DNA from: Acidocella sp. | Lineage (GTDB): Bacteria > Pseudomonadota > Alphaproteobacteria > Acetobacterales > Acetobacteraceae | Length of the DNA stretch: 64,000 nt | Direction of reading: 5' to 3' | Assembly: GCA_031291755.1 (NCBI GenBank) | Contig: JARLIK010000022.1 | Span: 1 to 64,000, forward strand | Shown: positions 42,137 to 48,054 of the stretch, piece by piece | Numbering within the stretch: the stretch's first letter is position 1 | Layout: each line of letters begins with the position of its first letter | Position numbers and translations under genes: made by a program | The notes under the pieces: model-generated | The model's database searches: none | What the model saw: the letters and a program-made list of their open reading frames with translations, nothing else | What the model was told of the DNA's origin: nothing

Positions 42137-42210
42137 GGTCCGGTGGCAGAGTGGTGATGTAGCGGACTGCAAATCCGCGTATGCCGGTTCGATTCCGGCC
42201 CGGACCTCCA
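42137..42210 (+). tRNA. tRNA-Cys (GCA)
   Basis: The 74-base sequence folds as a tRNA. The acceptor stem is GGTCCGG/CCGGACC, the anticodon loop is CTGCAAA with GCA, the T arm is GGTTCGATTCC, the discriminator is T and CCA is encoded. A run of T (42211-42217) follows directly and probably ends the transcript. Confidence 0.95.
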
Positions 42211-42513
42211 TTTTTTTGTGCTATCCTCCCTTAATTATCGTGCTGGAATTTTAACCACCTCGATCTGCTTGCAGAGGCGGGCGTTGACAGAGTTTTGCTG
42301 TTTGAGTAGGTTTCTCATAACAAATGTTCGTATTGTGAACTTAAGAATTAAGGGAAGTCATCGCGGGATTAGAAAATAGGCTGGCAGGATCGGCAAAAAC
42401 GCCAAGGTCTTGGAATCCGGTTCTGTCCTACGGCCCTTCAGTTTTTCTTGTGGTTCACCGAACCCGTTGATCTCGGCTTGTTGAACAGCCGCAGTTTGGG
42501 AAAAGGATAAAAA
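42211..42513 (+). promoter_or_regulatory. Promoter/operator region of the bicupin-EutA-AAHS cluster
   Basis: After the tRNA-Cys T run comes a likely sigma70 promoter: TTGACA (42284-42289), 17 bases and TAGGTT (42307-42312). About 15 bases downstream lies the interrupted palindrome GTTC-N7-GAAC (42326-42340), a plausible operator for an IclR- or GntR-like regulator. No regulator gene is adjacent. A leader of nearly 200 bases would follow. No other coding frame is supported here. Confidence 0.45.
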
Positions 42514-43716
42514 ATGCCGCACGACGTTACAGGCCAGCCACATTGGCACGAACCCACCGGCGAGGTTTCCAAAGCCGGGTTCGGCACATTTAAAAAGCTT
42601 GCGACAGCTTACGATGAATTCATGGTGAGCGAGGGCATCCCAATATTCCGCGATCTTGGAATCGACCGTTGCCAGAATTTGCCGTTGCTTCCGTGGAAGC
42701 GCACCGGCGGCCGCGGCTCCTACATCCAGTTGTTCGGCACCGAGGGCAAATGGGGCTGCCATGTGGTTGAAGTTCCAGGCTCCGGCGCGCTGCATCCTGA
42801 AAAGCATATGTACGAGGAAATCTATCTCGTTTTGGAAGGCCGCGGCACCACCGAGGTTTGGTTGGAGACTGAATCCAAGCGGCATATTTTCGAATGGCAG
42901 AAAGGTTCGCTGTTCTCGATCCCGATGAACGCCATGCACCGCATCGTCAACGGCTCGTCCGCCCCGGCGCTGCTGCTCGGTGGCACCACCGCCCCGGTGG
43001 TGATCAATGCGCTCAATAACGTCGAAGCGGTATTCAACAACCCTTATGTTTTCAAGGACCGCTTCAGCGAGGATGATGATTTCTACAAGCCGCGCGATGA
43101 CATCGAACCCGACCCGGTGCGTGGCCTCGCCATGCGCCGCACCAACTTGGTGCCCGATGCGGTGAATTGTGACCTGCCGCTCGATAACCGCCGCTCACCT
43201 GGTTATCGCCGTGTTGAACCTTTCATGACCAATAACAGTTTTTATCTGTGGATCGGCCAGCATGAAAATGGCCGCTATTCGAAAGCGCATGCTCATACCT
43301 CGGCGGCGATTCTCATTTGCGTGAAAGGCAAAGGATACACCTACACCTGGCCGGAGCGTCTGGGCCCCAACCCGTGGAAGGACGGTAAAGCCGCGGAGGT
43401 GCGCCGGCTTGATTACGAAGCCGGCGGTATGGTGACAGCTGCTCCTGGTGGCGCCCGCTGGTATCATCAGCATTTCAGCGTCTCGAAAGAACCATTCCGC
43501 CTTACCGCCTGGTTCGGGCCACACTCGCCGGGGCGCGACCCTGGGCCGCCTGGTGAAAAGCATACCGATTATACTGCGATGGAATTGCAGGATGGCGGTA
43601 CCGCGATTCCCTATTGGCAGGAAGACCCCTTCATCCGGCAGGAGTATGAAGCGCGTTTGAAGCAAGAAGGCGTGGTGTGCCGGATGGACCCGAAGCTTTA
43701 CGAAAAGCCGGATTAG
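42514..43716 (+). CDS. Bicupin protein, dioxygenase-like
   Basis: This 400-residue two-cupin protein has an overall architecture like gentisate-type ring-cleavage dioxygenases. Cupin 1 has LHPEKHMYEE with His94, His98 and Glu101/102, plus His142 in PMNAMHRI. Cupin 2 has His259 and His261 (KAHAHTS) and His318/His320 in APGGARWYHQHF. Both sites look able to bind metal. It lies seven bases before a eutA-family gene and upstream of an AAHS transporter, which suggests uptake and use of an aromatic or similar acid. A role in activating a B12 enzyme with EutA is an alternative. The reaction is not known. Confidence 0.7.
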   Translation: MPHDVTGQPHWHEPTGEVSKAGFGTFKKLATAYDEFMVSEGIPIFRDLGIDRCQNLPLLPWKRTGGRGSYIQLFGTEGKWGCHVVEVPGSGALHPEKHMYEEIYLVLEGRGTTEVWLETESKRHIFEWQKGSLFSIPMNAMHRIVNGSSAPALLLGGTTAPVVINALNNVEAVFNNPYVFKDRFSEDDDFYKPRDDIEPDPVRGLAMRRTNLVPDAVNCDLPLDNRRSPGYRRVEPFMTNNSFYLWIGQHENGRYSKAHAHTSAAILICVKGKGYTYTWPERLGPNPWKDGKAAEVRRLDYEAGGMVTAAPGGARWYHQHFSVSKEPFRLTAWFGPHSPGRDPGPPGEKHTDYTAMELQDGGTAIPYWQEDPFIRQEYEARLKQEGVVCRMDPKLYEKPD

Positions 43717-43723
43717 TCAGCGT

Positions 43724-45244
43724 ATGGATAACCCCGCCGGCGGCCGGCTGTTTTTCACCAACGCCCGGCGCAGCATTGTCGATGAAGATGAAATCCAAAT
43801 CATCAGCGTCGGCATCGATATCGGATCTTCCACGACGCATCTGGCTTTTTCTCGGATTACACTTGAGCGGGTGGACTCGCATTATATCGTCGCCAATCGG
43901 GAAGTATTGTTTGAATCTGCGATTCTTCTCACCCCCTATGCCGGGGAAAATGAGATTGATACCGCCGCCCTCAAGGATTTTTTTGAAACGCAGTACCAAC
44001 TCGCCGATATTGATTTCGATACGATCGACACCGGCGCCCTCATTTTGACCGGCACCGCGGTACGGCGCAACAATGCTCGTGCCATCGCCGATATATTTGC
44101 CAAGGCGGCTGGTAAGTTCGTCTCGATCAGCGCTGGTGACGGCATGGAGGCTATTCTTGCCGCCCATGGCGCGGGTGCGGTGGCCTTGTCGGTGAATGCC
44201 GCGCATGACGTGCTGAACATTGATATCGGCGGCGGCACCACCAAGCTCGCCCGCTGCTATCGCGGTGAGGTGCGGGAGTTTACCGCCATTGATATCGGAG
44301 CGCGCTTGATTGCCATGGATGAGCTTGGCCGCCTGACTCGCCTGGAACCGGCAGGGCGCAAAATTGCCGAGGCTTGCGGAATCGTGTTGACGCTCGGCGC
44401 CGTTGTAAGTGCTACCGATCTCGACATCATGGCCGATTTGATGACCGACCATCTCATGGAAGCCATTAAAGCAAGTGTGTTGAGCGAGCCGGTTTCCGAT
44501 TTGCTGCGTCTGCCGCCGCTCAGCCCCTCGGCCCGTCCATCATTTATCACTTTTTCAGGCGGTGTCTCAGAGTACGTCTATCAGCGCGCCAGCGCCGGCC
44601 ATGGTGATCTCGGCTTGCGGCTGGCGCAGAATATCGCCCGGAAGGTCAAGGCGTGGGGACCCGAGGTGGTGCCGGTAGCTCAAGGCATCCGCGCCACCGT
44701 CATCGGTGCCTCGCAATATACCGTGCAGGTCAGCGGCTCGACGATTTTTGTTTCCGACCTTGATTTCCTGCCATTGCGCAATGTGCCTACCATTATGCTG
44801 ACACCGGCGCTGTTGAGTGGCGACATCGACGCGCAAGCCATAGCCGCCGATATCACCCACGCCATCGCGACCTCGGGTGTTATCGACACCACGCAGGCCT
44901 TCGCCCTAGGCTATTCGTGGCAAGGCTCCGCCACATTCGCGCGTCTTGAAGCCTTCTGCCGTGGCGTCGCGGCTGGTTTTGCCGCCCAGATCGCCAGCGC
45001 CCAGCCGCTGATTTTGGTGGGTGACTGCGATATCGGCGGCTTGATCGGCTTGCACTTTGCCGAAGAACTGCATATGCGTGGCAAGGTCGTTTCGATTGAC
45101 GGTATTATTTCTAAAAAATTCGACTTCATCGATATCGGGAAAATGCTTGAAGGCTCCGGCTCCGTACCGGTTGTTGTCAAATCCCTGATTTTTCCGGGCT
45201 CGGATGCGGTAGGGCGAAGCAAGCTCGATACTATAAACCACTAA
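43724..45244 (+). CDS. EutA-family (ethanolamine ammonia-lyase reactivase) protein
   Basis: This 506-residue EutA-family ATPase has the actin/Hsp70-type fold, with nucleotide motifs VGIDIGSSTTHLAF and LNIDIGGGTTKLARC. In enteric bacteria EutA reactivates ethanolamine ammonia-lyase by exchanging damaged cobalamin. No eutB, eutC or other B12 enzyme lies within the window, so this copy is orphaned beside the bicupin and transporter genes. The ATG is seven bases after the bicupin stop, and the AAHS gene follows after 20 bases. Its partner enzyme is unknown. Confidence 0.82.
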   Translation: MDNPAGGRLFFTNARRSIVDEDEIQIISVGIDIGSSTTHLAFSRITLERVDSHYIVANREVLFESAILLTPYAGENEIDTAALKDFFETQYQLADIDFDTIDTGALILTGTAVRRNNARAIADIFAKAAGKFVSISAGDGMEAILAAHGAGAVALSVNAAHDVLNIDIGGGTTKLARCYRGEVREFTAIDIGARLIAMDELGRLTRLEPAGRKIAEACGIVLTLGAVVSATDLDIMADLMTDHLMEAIKASVLSEPVSDLLRLPPLSPSARPSFITFSGGVSEYVYQRASAGHGDLGLRLAQNIARKVKAWGPEVVPVAQGIRATVIGASQYTVQVSGSTIFVSDLDFLPLRNVPTIMLTPALLSGDIDAQAIAADITHAIATSGVIDTTQAFALGYSWQGSATFARLEAFCRGVAAGFAAQIASAQPLILVGDCDIGGLIGLHFAEELHMRGKVVSIDGIISKKFDFIDIGKMLEGSGSVPVVVKSLIFPGSDAVGRSKLDTINH

Positions 45245-45264
45245 AAAATACTTGAGGGGCGAAA

Positions 45265-46620
45265 ATGGACACTGATAATAGTTTTAATATCGGTACGGTT
45301 GTCGATAATCTACCGGTCCGCCGGTTCACCATGCTGATCTTCTTCATTTGCTTCCTCGCCATGCTTTCGGACGGTTATGACCTTGGCGTTGTTGGTTTGG
45401 CCGCCCCAGGTATTGTGACCAGTTTTCACATGGTGCGGTCCGCCATGGCCCCGGTGTTTAGCGCCGCACTGCTCGGCATGCTGGTTGGGGCTCTGACCAG
45501 CGGCATTTACGGTGACCGTTTTGGCCGCAAGCGTGGTATTATCATTGCCTGTTTCATTATATGCATCGCCAGCTACGGCTGCGGATTTGCCCCCGATTTC
45601 ACCTCATTGCTTTGGCTGCGATTCGCAACCGGCCTTGGCCTTGGCGGTTTGCTGCCGAACGTCACGGCCATGATGGCAGAGTTTTTACCAAAAAAAATCC
45701 GTGCGGCTTTTACCACTTATGCGTTCATGGGCATCACCTTTGGTGGCATTTTGCCGGGCGTGATCAGTGCGCAACTGGTCGGCGGTGACTGGCATGATCT
45801 GTTTTTTGTCGGTGGTCTTATTCCGATGATCGTATTGCCGCTGGTGTATTTCAAGCTGCCGGAGTCTCTAAAATTCCTGTCGCTTGATCGTAAGAACGAC
45901 GACGAGATACGCAAATGGCTGGGCAAGTTGGCTCCCGAGCTTATGATTCCGCCCAATGTGACCTTCATCCTGAACGAGACCAAAGCCCAAAAATTCTCTA
46001 TCGGCTTTTTATTCGCCGATAAATTGAAATTCGTGACACCGTTTTTGTGGCTGGTGTTTATTTCGATCATGTTGGTGAATTTTTTTGTTAACAGCTGGCT
46101 GGCCATCGTCCTGCACGACATAGGGTTCACCAAAGCGCAGGCGGCGGATACGGTTTCGCTGTATTATGTCGGCGGCGTGACCGGAGGCTTGTTAATCGGC
46201 CCGGCGCTTGATTTAATCGGGCCGATCGTGCTGGCGCTCTACGCGGTGATTGGCTGTGTCATCACCAGCTTGATCGGTATTCCAGATACCGCGCCTGCGA
46301 TGATTCATTTTCTGGTGTTTATGATCGGCTTCAGCATTCTCGGTGCCCAGGTTGGCATGAGTTCATTGGCCGGCATGCTCTACCCTACCGCTATCCGTTC
46401 ACGGGGCGCTGGGTTTGCCCATGCCATTGGCCGCATCGGCGCCATCAGCGGCCCGCTGCTGGCCGGGCAACTGATTGCGCAGCACGCCTCGGTGTTTATC
46501 TTGTTTCTGGTGCCGGTGATTCCGCTCGCTACTGCCGCCATCGGATTTGCCGCCATCACAATCATCTGGACCGGCAAGGCGCTCGGCATCGGCCTAGCAA
46601 AACTGCGTGTGCTGCAATGA
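45265..46620 (+). CDS. MFS transporter, aromatic acid:H+ symporter (AAHS) type
   Basis: This 451-residue, 12-segment MFS protein has the AAHS features: MLSDGYDLGVVGLAAPGI in the first segment with the key Asp, and GIYGDRFGRKRGIII in the loop 2-3 motif. PcaK-like members import 4-hydroxybenzoate or protocatechuate. It follows the eutA-like gene by 20 bases and has GAGGGG before its ATG. Its place in the cluster suggests it imports the substrate of the bicupin protein. A hairpin follows the stop. Confidence 0.83.
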   Translation: MDTDNSFNIGTVVDNLPVRRFTMLIFFICFLAMLSDGYDLGVVGLAAPGIVTSFHMVRSAMAPVFSAALLGMLVGALTSGIYGDRFGRKRGIIIACFIICIASYGCGFAPDFTSLLWLRFATGLGLGGLLPNVTAMMAEFLPKKIRAAFTTYAFMGITFGGILPGVISAQLVGGDWHDLFFVGGLIPMIVLPLVYFKLPESLKFLSLDRKNDDEIRKWLGKLAPELMIPPNVTFILNETKAQKFSIGFLFADKLKFVTPFLWLVFISIMLVNFFVNSWLAIVLHDIGFTKAQAADTVSLYYVGGVTGGLLIGPALDLIGPIVLALYAVIGCVITSLIGIPDTAPAMIHFLVFMIGFSILGAQVGMSSLAGMLYPTAIRSRGAGFAHAIGRIGAISGPLLAGQLIAQHASVFILFLVPVIPLATAAIGFAAITIIWTGKALGIGLAKLRVLQ

Positions 46621-46698: not shown

Positions 46699-48054
46699 GT
46701 GGCGGACAGGCTGATACACGCAGACGGTTTACCAAAGCCGCAACGAAACCTCGCCCTCGCGGCGGTGCTTATCACGGTCATTTTAACAGTGATGGATCAG
46801 ACCGTGGCGAACGTCGCCCTACCGACCATCGCAGCCGATTTTCATGCCACCCCAACCGATTCAGTTGCCATCGTCAGCGCCTATCAGTTGGCGATTGTTA
46901 TGCTCATCCTGCCGCTTGCGGCGTTGGCGGAAATCTACGGCTACCGGCTCGTCTATCTCACCGGCATCGTGGTTTTTATTATTGCCTCGCTGGGTTGTGT
47001 GCTGGCCAATTCCATCACCACCCTCACCATCGCGCGCATTGTGCAGGGCTTCGGCGCGGCCGGCATCATGAGCGTGAATACCGCGCTGATCCGGTATATT
47101 TTTCCGCATAGTCTGTTGGGCCGCGGCATCGGGTTAAATTCCATGGTGGTAGCGGTCGCCTCCACTATGGGGCCAAGCTTTGCCGGCATCGTGTTGAGCT
47201 TTGCGTCCTGGCAATGGCTGTTCACCATCAATCTGCCGCTTGGCATTATCTCTTTGGTGATGGGCTACCGTAATTTGCCGGCCAGCGATCTCGTCAAGCG
47301 CCGCTTCGATGGTCTCAGCGCGGCCCTTACCGCGATTGCTTTTGCCATGCTGATCACCACCATCCAAAGCTTCAGCCATGCGGAGCCCCTGGTTTTATCA
47401 TTTGCCGAAATGCTGACGGGCATCATCGCCATCACCTGGTCGGTGCTCAGACAACTGCCCGACCCGGCCCCGTTGCTGCCGGTTGATTTATTGCGCCGTC
47501 CACTATTTGCGCTTTCGGTCGGCACGTCGATCTCATGCTTTACCGCGCAAATGCTGGCGCTGGTGTCGCTGCCTTTTTATTTTGAAACCATTCTGGGCTT
47601 TAACGTCACCGAGACCGGTCTGCTGATCATGGCGTGGCCGCTTACCATTGCGGTTGTCACCAACATTTCCGGCCATATGGCGGACCGTTACCCGGCGGCG
47701 ATTTTGAATTTTTTAGGTATCAGCGTCCTTGCCGCGGGTCTGCTTTTGCTCAGTTTCCTGCCGCCGCACCCTGGCTACGCCAACGTTGTATGGCGCATGA
47801 TGTTGTGCGGCTTCGGCTTTGGGTTTTTTCAGCCGCCGAATAACCGGGTCATTATGACCTCCGCCCCCAAGCCCCGCAGCGGTGCTGCCAGCGGCACCAT
47901 TGCCACCTCACGCCTGCTGGGCCAAGCGACAGGCGCGGCTCTGGCCGCCTTGATACTGGCCAAACTGGGCAACCACGGGGCGATTGTTTCGCTGGATGTC
48001 GGTGCAGGGTTCGCCGGCGTGTCAGCCCTGATTAGTCTGCTACGGCTGGTTTGA
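46699..48054 (+). CDS. MFS efflux transporter, DHA2 (EmrB-like) type
   Basis: This 451-residue MFS transporter has about 14 hydrophobic segments. VMDQTVANVALPTIAADF and the following motif, together with GPSFAGIVLSFASWQW, place it in the DHA2 drug-efflux family, usually with EmrA-like partners that are absent here. The start is GTG 46699, preceded by AAGGTAAAG. It could export a toxic intermediate of the preceding cluster, but co-transcription is uncertain because of the intervening hairpin. Confidence 0.83.
   Translation: MADRLIHADGLPKPQRNLALAAVLITVILTVMDQTVANVALPTIAADFHATPTDSVAIVSAYQLAIVMLILPLAALAEIYGYRLVYLTGIVVFIIASLGCVLANSITTLTIARIVQGFGAAGIMSVNTALIRYIFPHSLLGRGIGLNSMVVAVASTMGPSFAGIVLSFASWQWLFTINLPLGIISLVMGYRNLPASDLVKRRFDGLSAALTAIAFAMLITTIQSFSHAEPLVLSFAEMLTGIIAITWSVLRQLPDPAPLLPVDLLRRPLFALSVGTSISCFTAQMLALVSLPFYFETILGFNVTETGLLIMAWPLTIAVVTNISGHMADRYPAAILNFLGISVLAAGLLLLSFLPPHPGYANVVWRMMLCGFGFGFFQPPNNRVIMTSAPKPRSGAASGTIATSRLLGQATGAALAALILAKLGNHGAIVSLDVGAGFAGVSALISLLRLV

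Follow-up and report, generated by a model that had tools for sequence, protein, structure and literature searches.

What does a protein of the EutA family do in a locus without ethanolamine ammonia-lyase? The question is raised by a gene cluster of Acidocella sp. (GenBank assembly GCA_031291755.1, contig JARLIK010000022.1), of which positions 1 to 64,000, 64 kb in all and hereafter called the window, were analysed. Three genes follow one another there on the plus strand, namely those of a bicupin of 400 amino acids (42514–43716), of a EutA-like ATPase of 506 amino acids (43724–45244) and of an MFS transporter of 451 amino acids (45265–46620), with intergenic gaps of 7 and 20 bases, exactly as a first-pass annotation of the sequence had described them. 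That annotation had also suggested that the ATPase may serve the bicupin and not a B12 lyase, and this idea is now supported by a conserved, subfamily-matched pairing of the two genes in relatives, most of whose genomes have no EutB. In particular, we propose, at a slightly better than even chance and on the grounds of sequence comparison, that the EutA-like ATPase maintains the metal centre of the bicupin, either loading or reactivating it, and that the metal is probably nickel.

The conservation of the pair can be judged from at least 474 stretches of GTDB genomes that encode relatives, of which the best 80 (L013 to L092, 69–94% identical) were compared; these are the nearest loci and not a random sample. 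Most belong to alpha-, beta- or gammaproteobacteria, and one Microbacterium and one Acidobacteriota metagenome-assembled genome (MAG) are also represented. A EutA-like gene is present in 66 of the 80 loci, and in 59 it lies no more than 300 bp from the bicupin gene. Among the 50 long loci (at least 19 kb), it lies within that distance in 42, namely on the same strand and with matching subfamily in 41 and divergently in one, and it stands 1.1–3.1 kb away in three more, the remaining five (L038, L056, L074, L078 and L084) having none in the locus. What is more, 13 of the 14 genomes whose loci have no EutA-like gene carry a full-length one elsewhere. These counts rest on tblastn, and the simple gene caller is unreliable in some high-GC loci such as L035; in the 38 pairs of subfamily W for which it resolved both genes, the gap ranges from −4 to 204 bases. 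The pair is also found in two MAGs whose titles give Bordetella parapertussis and Klebsiella pneumoniae as the species (L068 and L072), names that look doubtful. The transporter does not share in this conservation: a relative of it occurs in only 2 of the 80 loci (L013 and L063), which rules out the trio as a functional unit. In other words, the three-gene unit of the first-pass annotation has to be given up and replaced by a two-gene one, the trio being almost unconserved beyond this genome and the bicupin–EutA pair clearly conserved; eutBC genes were not found adjacent in close relatives. The bicupin family itself is sporadic, because among 398 genomes sampled evenly across the phylum the host alone has a full-length bicupin. 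Full-length bicupins were found in 6 of 147 relatives searched (the host, three members of its genus and two of its family). In these phylum searches few candidates per genome were scored, so that other genomes may be under-counted, and one of the host's own EutA-like genes, that on contig C12, is missing from the 398-genome listing but was found in the search of the host genome.

The partners are matched to each other. Four subfamilies, W, C, B1 and B2, can be told apart, and neighbouring pairs on the same strand match by subfamily in 64 of 64 cases (55 W–W, five C–C, three B1–B1 and one B2–B2); six B1 ATPases standing divergent to a W bicupin go against a strict matching rule. In a tree of 46 sequences, with subfamily W thinned to 17 and adjacency to EutB taken from coordinates, the bicupin-linked ATPases lie on one side of a branch (97/97) and five EutB-adjacent EutAs on the other, with the reservation that the tree program flagged some branches as long, including the window's own (1.37) and that of one canonical EutA (10). 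Of 49 bicupin genomes, 13 yielded a EutB, once as a fragment of 50 positions, and 36 none, many of the 49 being incomplete MAGs. Since these ATPases form a clade of their own and EutB is lacking in those 36 genomes, their client is in general not ethanolamine lyase. The earlier suggestion of a distant cobalamin enzyme in that role finds no support.

The host genome tells the same story on a smaller scale. It comprises 2.59 Mb in 38 contigs, is 83.7% complete, and holds four EutA-like genes and four full-length bicupin genes, every EutA-like gene standing beside a bicupin: one pair on C6 (the window), one on C12 and two in tandem on C30. The paralogues are 28–34% (bicupin) and 36–39% (ATPase) identical to the window proteins, and the EutA-like paralogues share 32–35% identity with four of the EutB-adjacent EutAs and 24–28% with the fifth. 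The only EutB found in the host (C30:60489–61790) lies 33 kb from the nearest pair and has no EutA-like gene adjoining it, which, together with the absence of EutB from 36 bicupin genomes, rules out EutBC as the general client. The first-pass annotation had written of a cluster with no B12 enzyme; this is correct for the neighbourhood, EutB and EutC being absent from the window, but not for the genome. One could nevertheless hold that these proteins simply reactivate ethanolamine ammonia-lyase, as EutA does, or another adenosylcobalamin enzyme encoded elsewhere, and that the adjacency to bicupins is incidental. The Pfam match to EutA, the one EutB of the host and the EutA name given in RefSeq would agree with this, but the separate clade, scores under four NCBIfam EutA cut-offs, the subfamily-matched pairing and a host EutB without adjoining EutA all speak against it (cobalamin enzymes other than EutB were not searched genome-wide), and we strongly disfavour this explanation, to which we would give hardly any probability. 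As for EutA in the phylum at large, all five full-length EutAs outside the host, among the matches listed for the 398 genomes, adjoin EutB; EutB itself scores above the cut-off in 80 of these genomes, and most EutB genes thus seem to have no recognisable EutA among the matches listed.

What kind of protein, then, is the ATPase? The EutA domain (PF06277) spans residues 25–490, its full length, with an E-value of 1.3e-111, and bears out the earlier assignment of the second gene to this family. The protein has in common with EutA this full-length Pfam match and intact nucleotide-binding motifs of the ASKHA (actin/Hsp70-like) class. It differs in having a bicupin as partner instead of EutBC, in belonging to a separate clade, one subfamily of which is His-tailed, and in remaining below all four NCBIfam EutA cut-offs (325, 243, 212 and 197 bits vs. 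598, 769, 952 and 799). Foldseek, run with a structure model of the ATPase (predicted local distance difference test, pLDDT, 84.1), returned ASKHA relatives, namely HgdC (1hux) at the top, Ppx/GppA, PilM, MreB and EutJ. HgdC, the activator of 2-hydroxyglutaryl-CoA dehydratase, carries a [4Fe-4S] cluster. Among 45 ATPase sequences no cysteine is invariant, the best cysteine columns reaching 28 and 26 of 45, and for this reason the EutA-like ATPases have no HgdC-like cluster, which rules out an electron-transfer activator of the HgdC type.

The bicupin shows two cupin domains in Pfam (Cupin_2, E=7.6e-7; Cupin_1, E=7.1e-6), and its structure model (pLDDT 89.3) has two barrels by secondary structure. 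In an alignment of 58 rows, five of them single-cupin proteins, H259 and H261 of the C-terminal cupin are found in 53 rows, the remaining five being gaps, that is, in all 53 bicupin rows; H318 is found in 53 rows and H320 in 54. The N-terminal site varies (44 of the 58 rows have H98 and 47 have H142), and of the metal-like histidine sites that had been noted in both cupins only the C-terminal one is therefore invariant. A profile of the whole family has gentisate 1,2-dioxygenase (3bu7) as its best PDB match (E 3.4e-16), an alignment that falls mainly on the N-terminal cupin, and 3bu7 is again first when the profile is restricted to the C-terminal half (E 8.9e-10), with the HxH and HxH-N signatures aligned. 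Judged by sequence, the invariant HxH...HQH site resembles that of gentisate dioxygenase, with which the bicupin shares the two cupins and a three-histidine site in the C-terminal one. That said, the likeness is far below family level, and the degenerate N-terminal site, the ATPase partner and the frequent nickel genes set the present proteins apart. Namely, phmmer with the single window bicupin did not find gentisate dioxygenase at E up to 1, and the only NCBIfam dioxygenase match, 5-aminosalicylate dioxygenase (NF049978), reaches 16.4 bits against a cut-off of 650.

We read the bicupin as a putative metal-dependent, ring-cleaving oxygenase. It could also be a cupin that is no oxygenase, a decarboxylase, isomerase or hydrolase-like enzyme dependent on manganese, cobalt or nickel, with the ATPase as its metal chaperone. 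Foldseek, which with the bicupin model ranks the manganese bicupins MncA and oxalate decarboxylase first (template modelling score about 0.45–0.5), favours this alternative and counts against the oxygenase; the match of the C-terminal cupin to cupin phosphoglucose isomerases (E about 0.001) and the absence from it of the usual cupin glutamate ligand favour the alternative too. On the other side stand the two profile searches and the catabolic neighbours of the pairs in the loci, namely Rieske oxygenases, a ring hydroxylase and class II aldolases; we regard the non-oxygenase as improbable. Two further labels among the neighbours are provisional: the product of L030:1341–2273, from a family labelled dihydroxyphthalate decarboxylase-like, has no Pfam or NCBIfam match, and the amidohydrolase-like one of L010:78–1112 has no NCBIfam match. 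In the host, the C30 pairs are flanked by an IclR-type regulator, a Rieske-type oxygenase, an HpcH-type aldolase and other catabolic-looking genes, several of these names being a reading of the sequence. Separately, small single-cupin genes, often paired side by side and each with HxH-x3-E and HQHFN motifs, number 27 in 16 of 82 stretches (e.g. L024 17175–18375, where the pair adjoins a HupE gene, L064 7587–8726, L044 587–1141 and host C30:36642–37508), and they give the impression of bicupin relatives in split form.

Which metal would such a bicupin hold? Genes for nickel transporters or the regulator NikR lie within 10 kb of the bicupin gene in 16 of the 80 loci, as found by neighbour clustering, Pfam and tblastn: HupE/UreJ in L018, L019, L020, L021, L024, L027, L030 and L032; NicO in L023, L026, L035, L045, L047 and L064; NikR in L015, L023, L026 and L047; and a nickel-type energy-coupling factor (ECF) system (DUF4198, CbiM, CbiQ and an ABC ATPase) in L017. 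Pfam was applied directly to one member of each family (those in L021, L045, L015 and L017), the remaining genes being identified with tblastn, to which whole-genome Pfam searches were added for HupE and NicO in long loci. As a control, gene sites were counted in the 49 genomes from which the 50 long loci come; HupE_UreJ has 37, so that 0.17 would be expected in the 50 stretches, and 8 were found (Poisson P 1.5e-11); for NicO there are 59 sites, with 0.29 expected and 5 found (P 1.4e-5). Nickel-linked loci are partly close relatives and these P values are accordingly overstated: five HupE loci are Rhizobiaceae-like with identical layout, and by eye about nine layouts are distinct. In Phyllobacterium zundukense, the RefSeq annotation lists a cupin, EutA, a HoxN/HupN/NixA-family transporter and nikR consecutively. 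A NikR box, allowing up to two mismatches and sought in L015, L023, L026, L035, L045, L047 and L064, was found only in L023 and L026.

The ATPases of subfamily B1 add a second line of evidence. All 18 of them, some near-copies of one another, end in a His-rich tail with 10–25 histidines within the last 50 residues, where 0–1 are seen in 54 clade members outside B1 and in five canonical EutAs; in L064 the stop codon of a B1 gene overlaps the start codon of NicO (ATGA). Urease or NiFe-hydrogenase as the explanation of the nickel genes was set aside after a negative motif scan of the 80 loci. Cobalamin regulation was likewise discarded, since neither the 16 nickel-linked loci nor the window nor L013 showed a cobalamin riboswitch that scored above the Rfam threshold. 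For other metals, a motif scan of the proteins that the gene caller predicted in the 80 loci yielded nothing for FeoB, ZIP, Fur, P-type ATPase or ZnuA; its five CorA-motif matches and one Nramp-motif match look chance-like, and the scan is weaker than a profile search in that it missed two of eight HupE and one of six NicO genes known from tblastn. TonB-receptor-like related genes near the pair (L015 7234–9279, L060 13087–13845 and L062 17757–19835) are a separate observation; the one in L015, because it adjoins NikR, is perhaps a nickel receptor.

Several facts weigh against a nickel-charged bicupin maintained by its ATPase, and they should be stated together. The genome of L074 has a bicupin and no EutA-like gene that we could find; 11 ATPases of subfamily B1 and four of W lack a bicupin at a distance of up to 400 bp; and in 64 of the 80 loci, the window's included, none of the nickel-gene families sought is represented. 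The window itself offers no direct nickel evidence, because the single NicO gene of the host stands on a different contig, and the EutA-like protein encoded in the window has no His-rich tail. In addition, NicO, HupE and CbiM-type transporters can carry cobalt too, gentisate dioxygenases are iron enzymes, and the metal of the bicupin may be iron or cobalt instead of nickel. Indeed, one can picture an ATPase that, by analogy with EutA ejecting damaged cobalamin, would reactivate a bicupin dioxygenase holding iron or another metal than nickel by ejecting its oxidised or product-blocked state, the nickel genes serving something else. The pairing would be explained equally well in this way, and the likeness to gentisate dioxygenase and the many loci without nickel genes would fit; such a scheme does not account for the repeated presence of nickel genes, which belong to several unrelated families and occur also in L015 and L047 (the latter only 9.3 kb), where no Rieske or aldolase gene was seen beside the pair, nor for the tails of the B1 ATPases, and the motif scan of predicted proteins showed no iron or manganese transporter. 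We consider it unlikely, if a good deal less so than incidental adjacency.

The full nickel proposal, namely that EutA-family ASKHA ATPases are nickel insertases or reactivases for new nickel-dependent ring-cleaving bicupin dioxygenases, with the His-tailed paralogues as ATP-driven nickel stores, is put forward tentatively, at somewhat less than an even chance. Its steps would be the following. The bicupin would be a metal-dependent oxygenase, most likely performing a gentisate-dioxygenase-like ring cleavage in an aromatic-acid pathway, with its metal held in the C-terminal cupin by H259, H261, H318 and perhaps H320. The metal, most likely nickel, would be imported through NicO, HupE or ECF-type importers, under NikR control in some species; the EutA-like ATPase, its presumed dedicated partner to judge by family profiles, pairing and tree, would use ATP to open the bicupin and load or renew the metal; and the paralogues with His-rich tails would keep nickel ready for delivery. 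Physical interaction of the two proteins, too, we infer from their genes. The nearest parallels are HypB, UreG/UreE and CooC/CooJ, the nickel-delivery NTPases and chaperones, and the likeness that we propose lies in nucleotide-driven delivery, His-rich tails and nickel-transport neighbours. The known NTPases are of the P-loop class, whereas the Foldseek relatives place the present ones in the ASKHA fold, with a cupin as client; of the other traits, the link to nickel-uptake genes appears in the 16 loci named above and the His-rich stretch in the B1 paralogues, neither of them in the window.

The surroundings of the pair in the window can be described briefly. The MFS protein (Pfam MFS_1, E=1.9e-33) has TIGR00895, aromatic acid/H+ symport, as its top NCBIfam match, far ahead of the others but at 309.5 bits below the cut-off of 418.55, so that the first-pass label of an aromatic acid:H+ symporter stands as the best match and not as a full assignment; the protein probably takes up the substrate and lies outside the conserved part of the unit. 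A DHA2-type MFS transporter (46699–48054) follows as the fourth gene and has the same place in L013 (83%). Upstream of the bicupin, the TTGACA and the GTTC-N7-GAAC palindrome reported earlier are both present. The former (42284–42289) forms, with a 17-base spacer and TAGGTT at 42307–42312, a promoter-like element on the plus strand (42284–42312), read from the sequence; L013, a 94% identical relative, has TTGACA-N17-TAGTTT at the equivalent position. The pair of hexamers is not among the matches of a promoter scan, and the promoter and terminator scan gave about as many matches as in shuffled sequence. The palindrome, GTTCGTATTGTGAAC at 42326–42340 and without strand, is a candidate operator with a counterpart, GTTCGTATAATGAAC, upstream of the bicupin in L013 and in none of the 49 other long loci; the palindrome alone is unremarkable, since GTTC-N7-GAAC occurs three times within the window. 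A tRNA-Cys gene (42137–42210) precedes the cluster, L013 likewise having a tRNA just upstream, and the GC content is uneven over the cluster (0.515–0.606 in 1-kb steps). As to a possible genomic island at the tRNA-Cys, a second copy of the tRNA end is absent from the window. Elsewhere, chromate-transporter-like (ChrA) genes lie near pairs in L010 (19263–19847), L017 (8696–9837, Pfam-checked), L031 (49–345), L052 (2466–3451) and L064 (16638–17812), and two conserved families without Pfam match recur, one of 170 amino acids beside a Rieske oxygenase in 12 loci (L032 18194–18706) and one of 135 amino acids in six (L064 7178–7585).

Open-licence PMC literature gave no description of a EutA-like protein paired with a cupin, and in PMC4334477, PMC5924519 and PMC7876524, EutA is the name of an ectoine-utilisation protein. 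The RefSeq name "ethanolamine ammonia-lyase reactivating factor EutA" is contradicted by gene context and tree for the whole clade. If the nickel proposal is true, the proteobacteria of soil, freshwater and root nodules that carry the pair would possess a metal-maturation ATPase of a new class, which delivers nickel without being a P-loop NTPase, and would break down aromatic acids with the help of a nickel-dependent step, and the clade now named as ethanolamine lyase reactivases would be reassigned.

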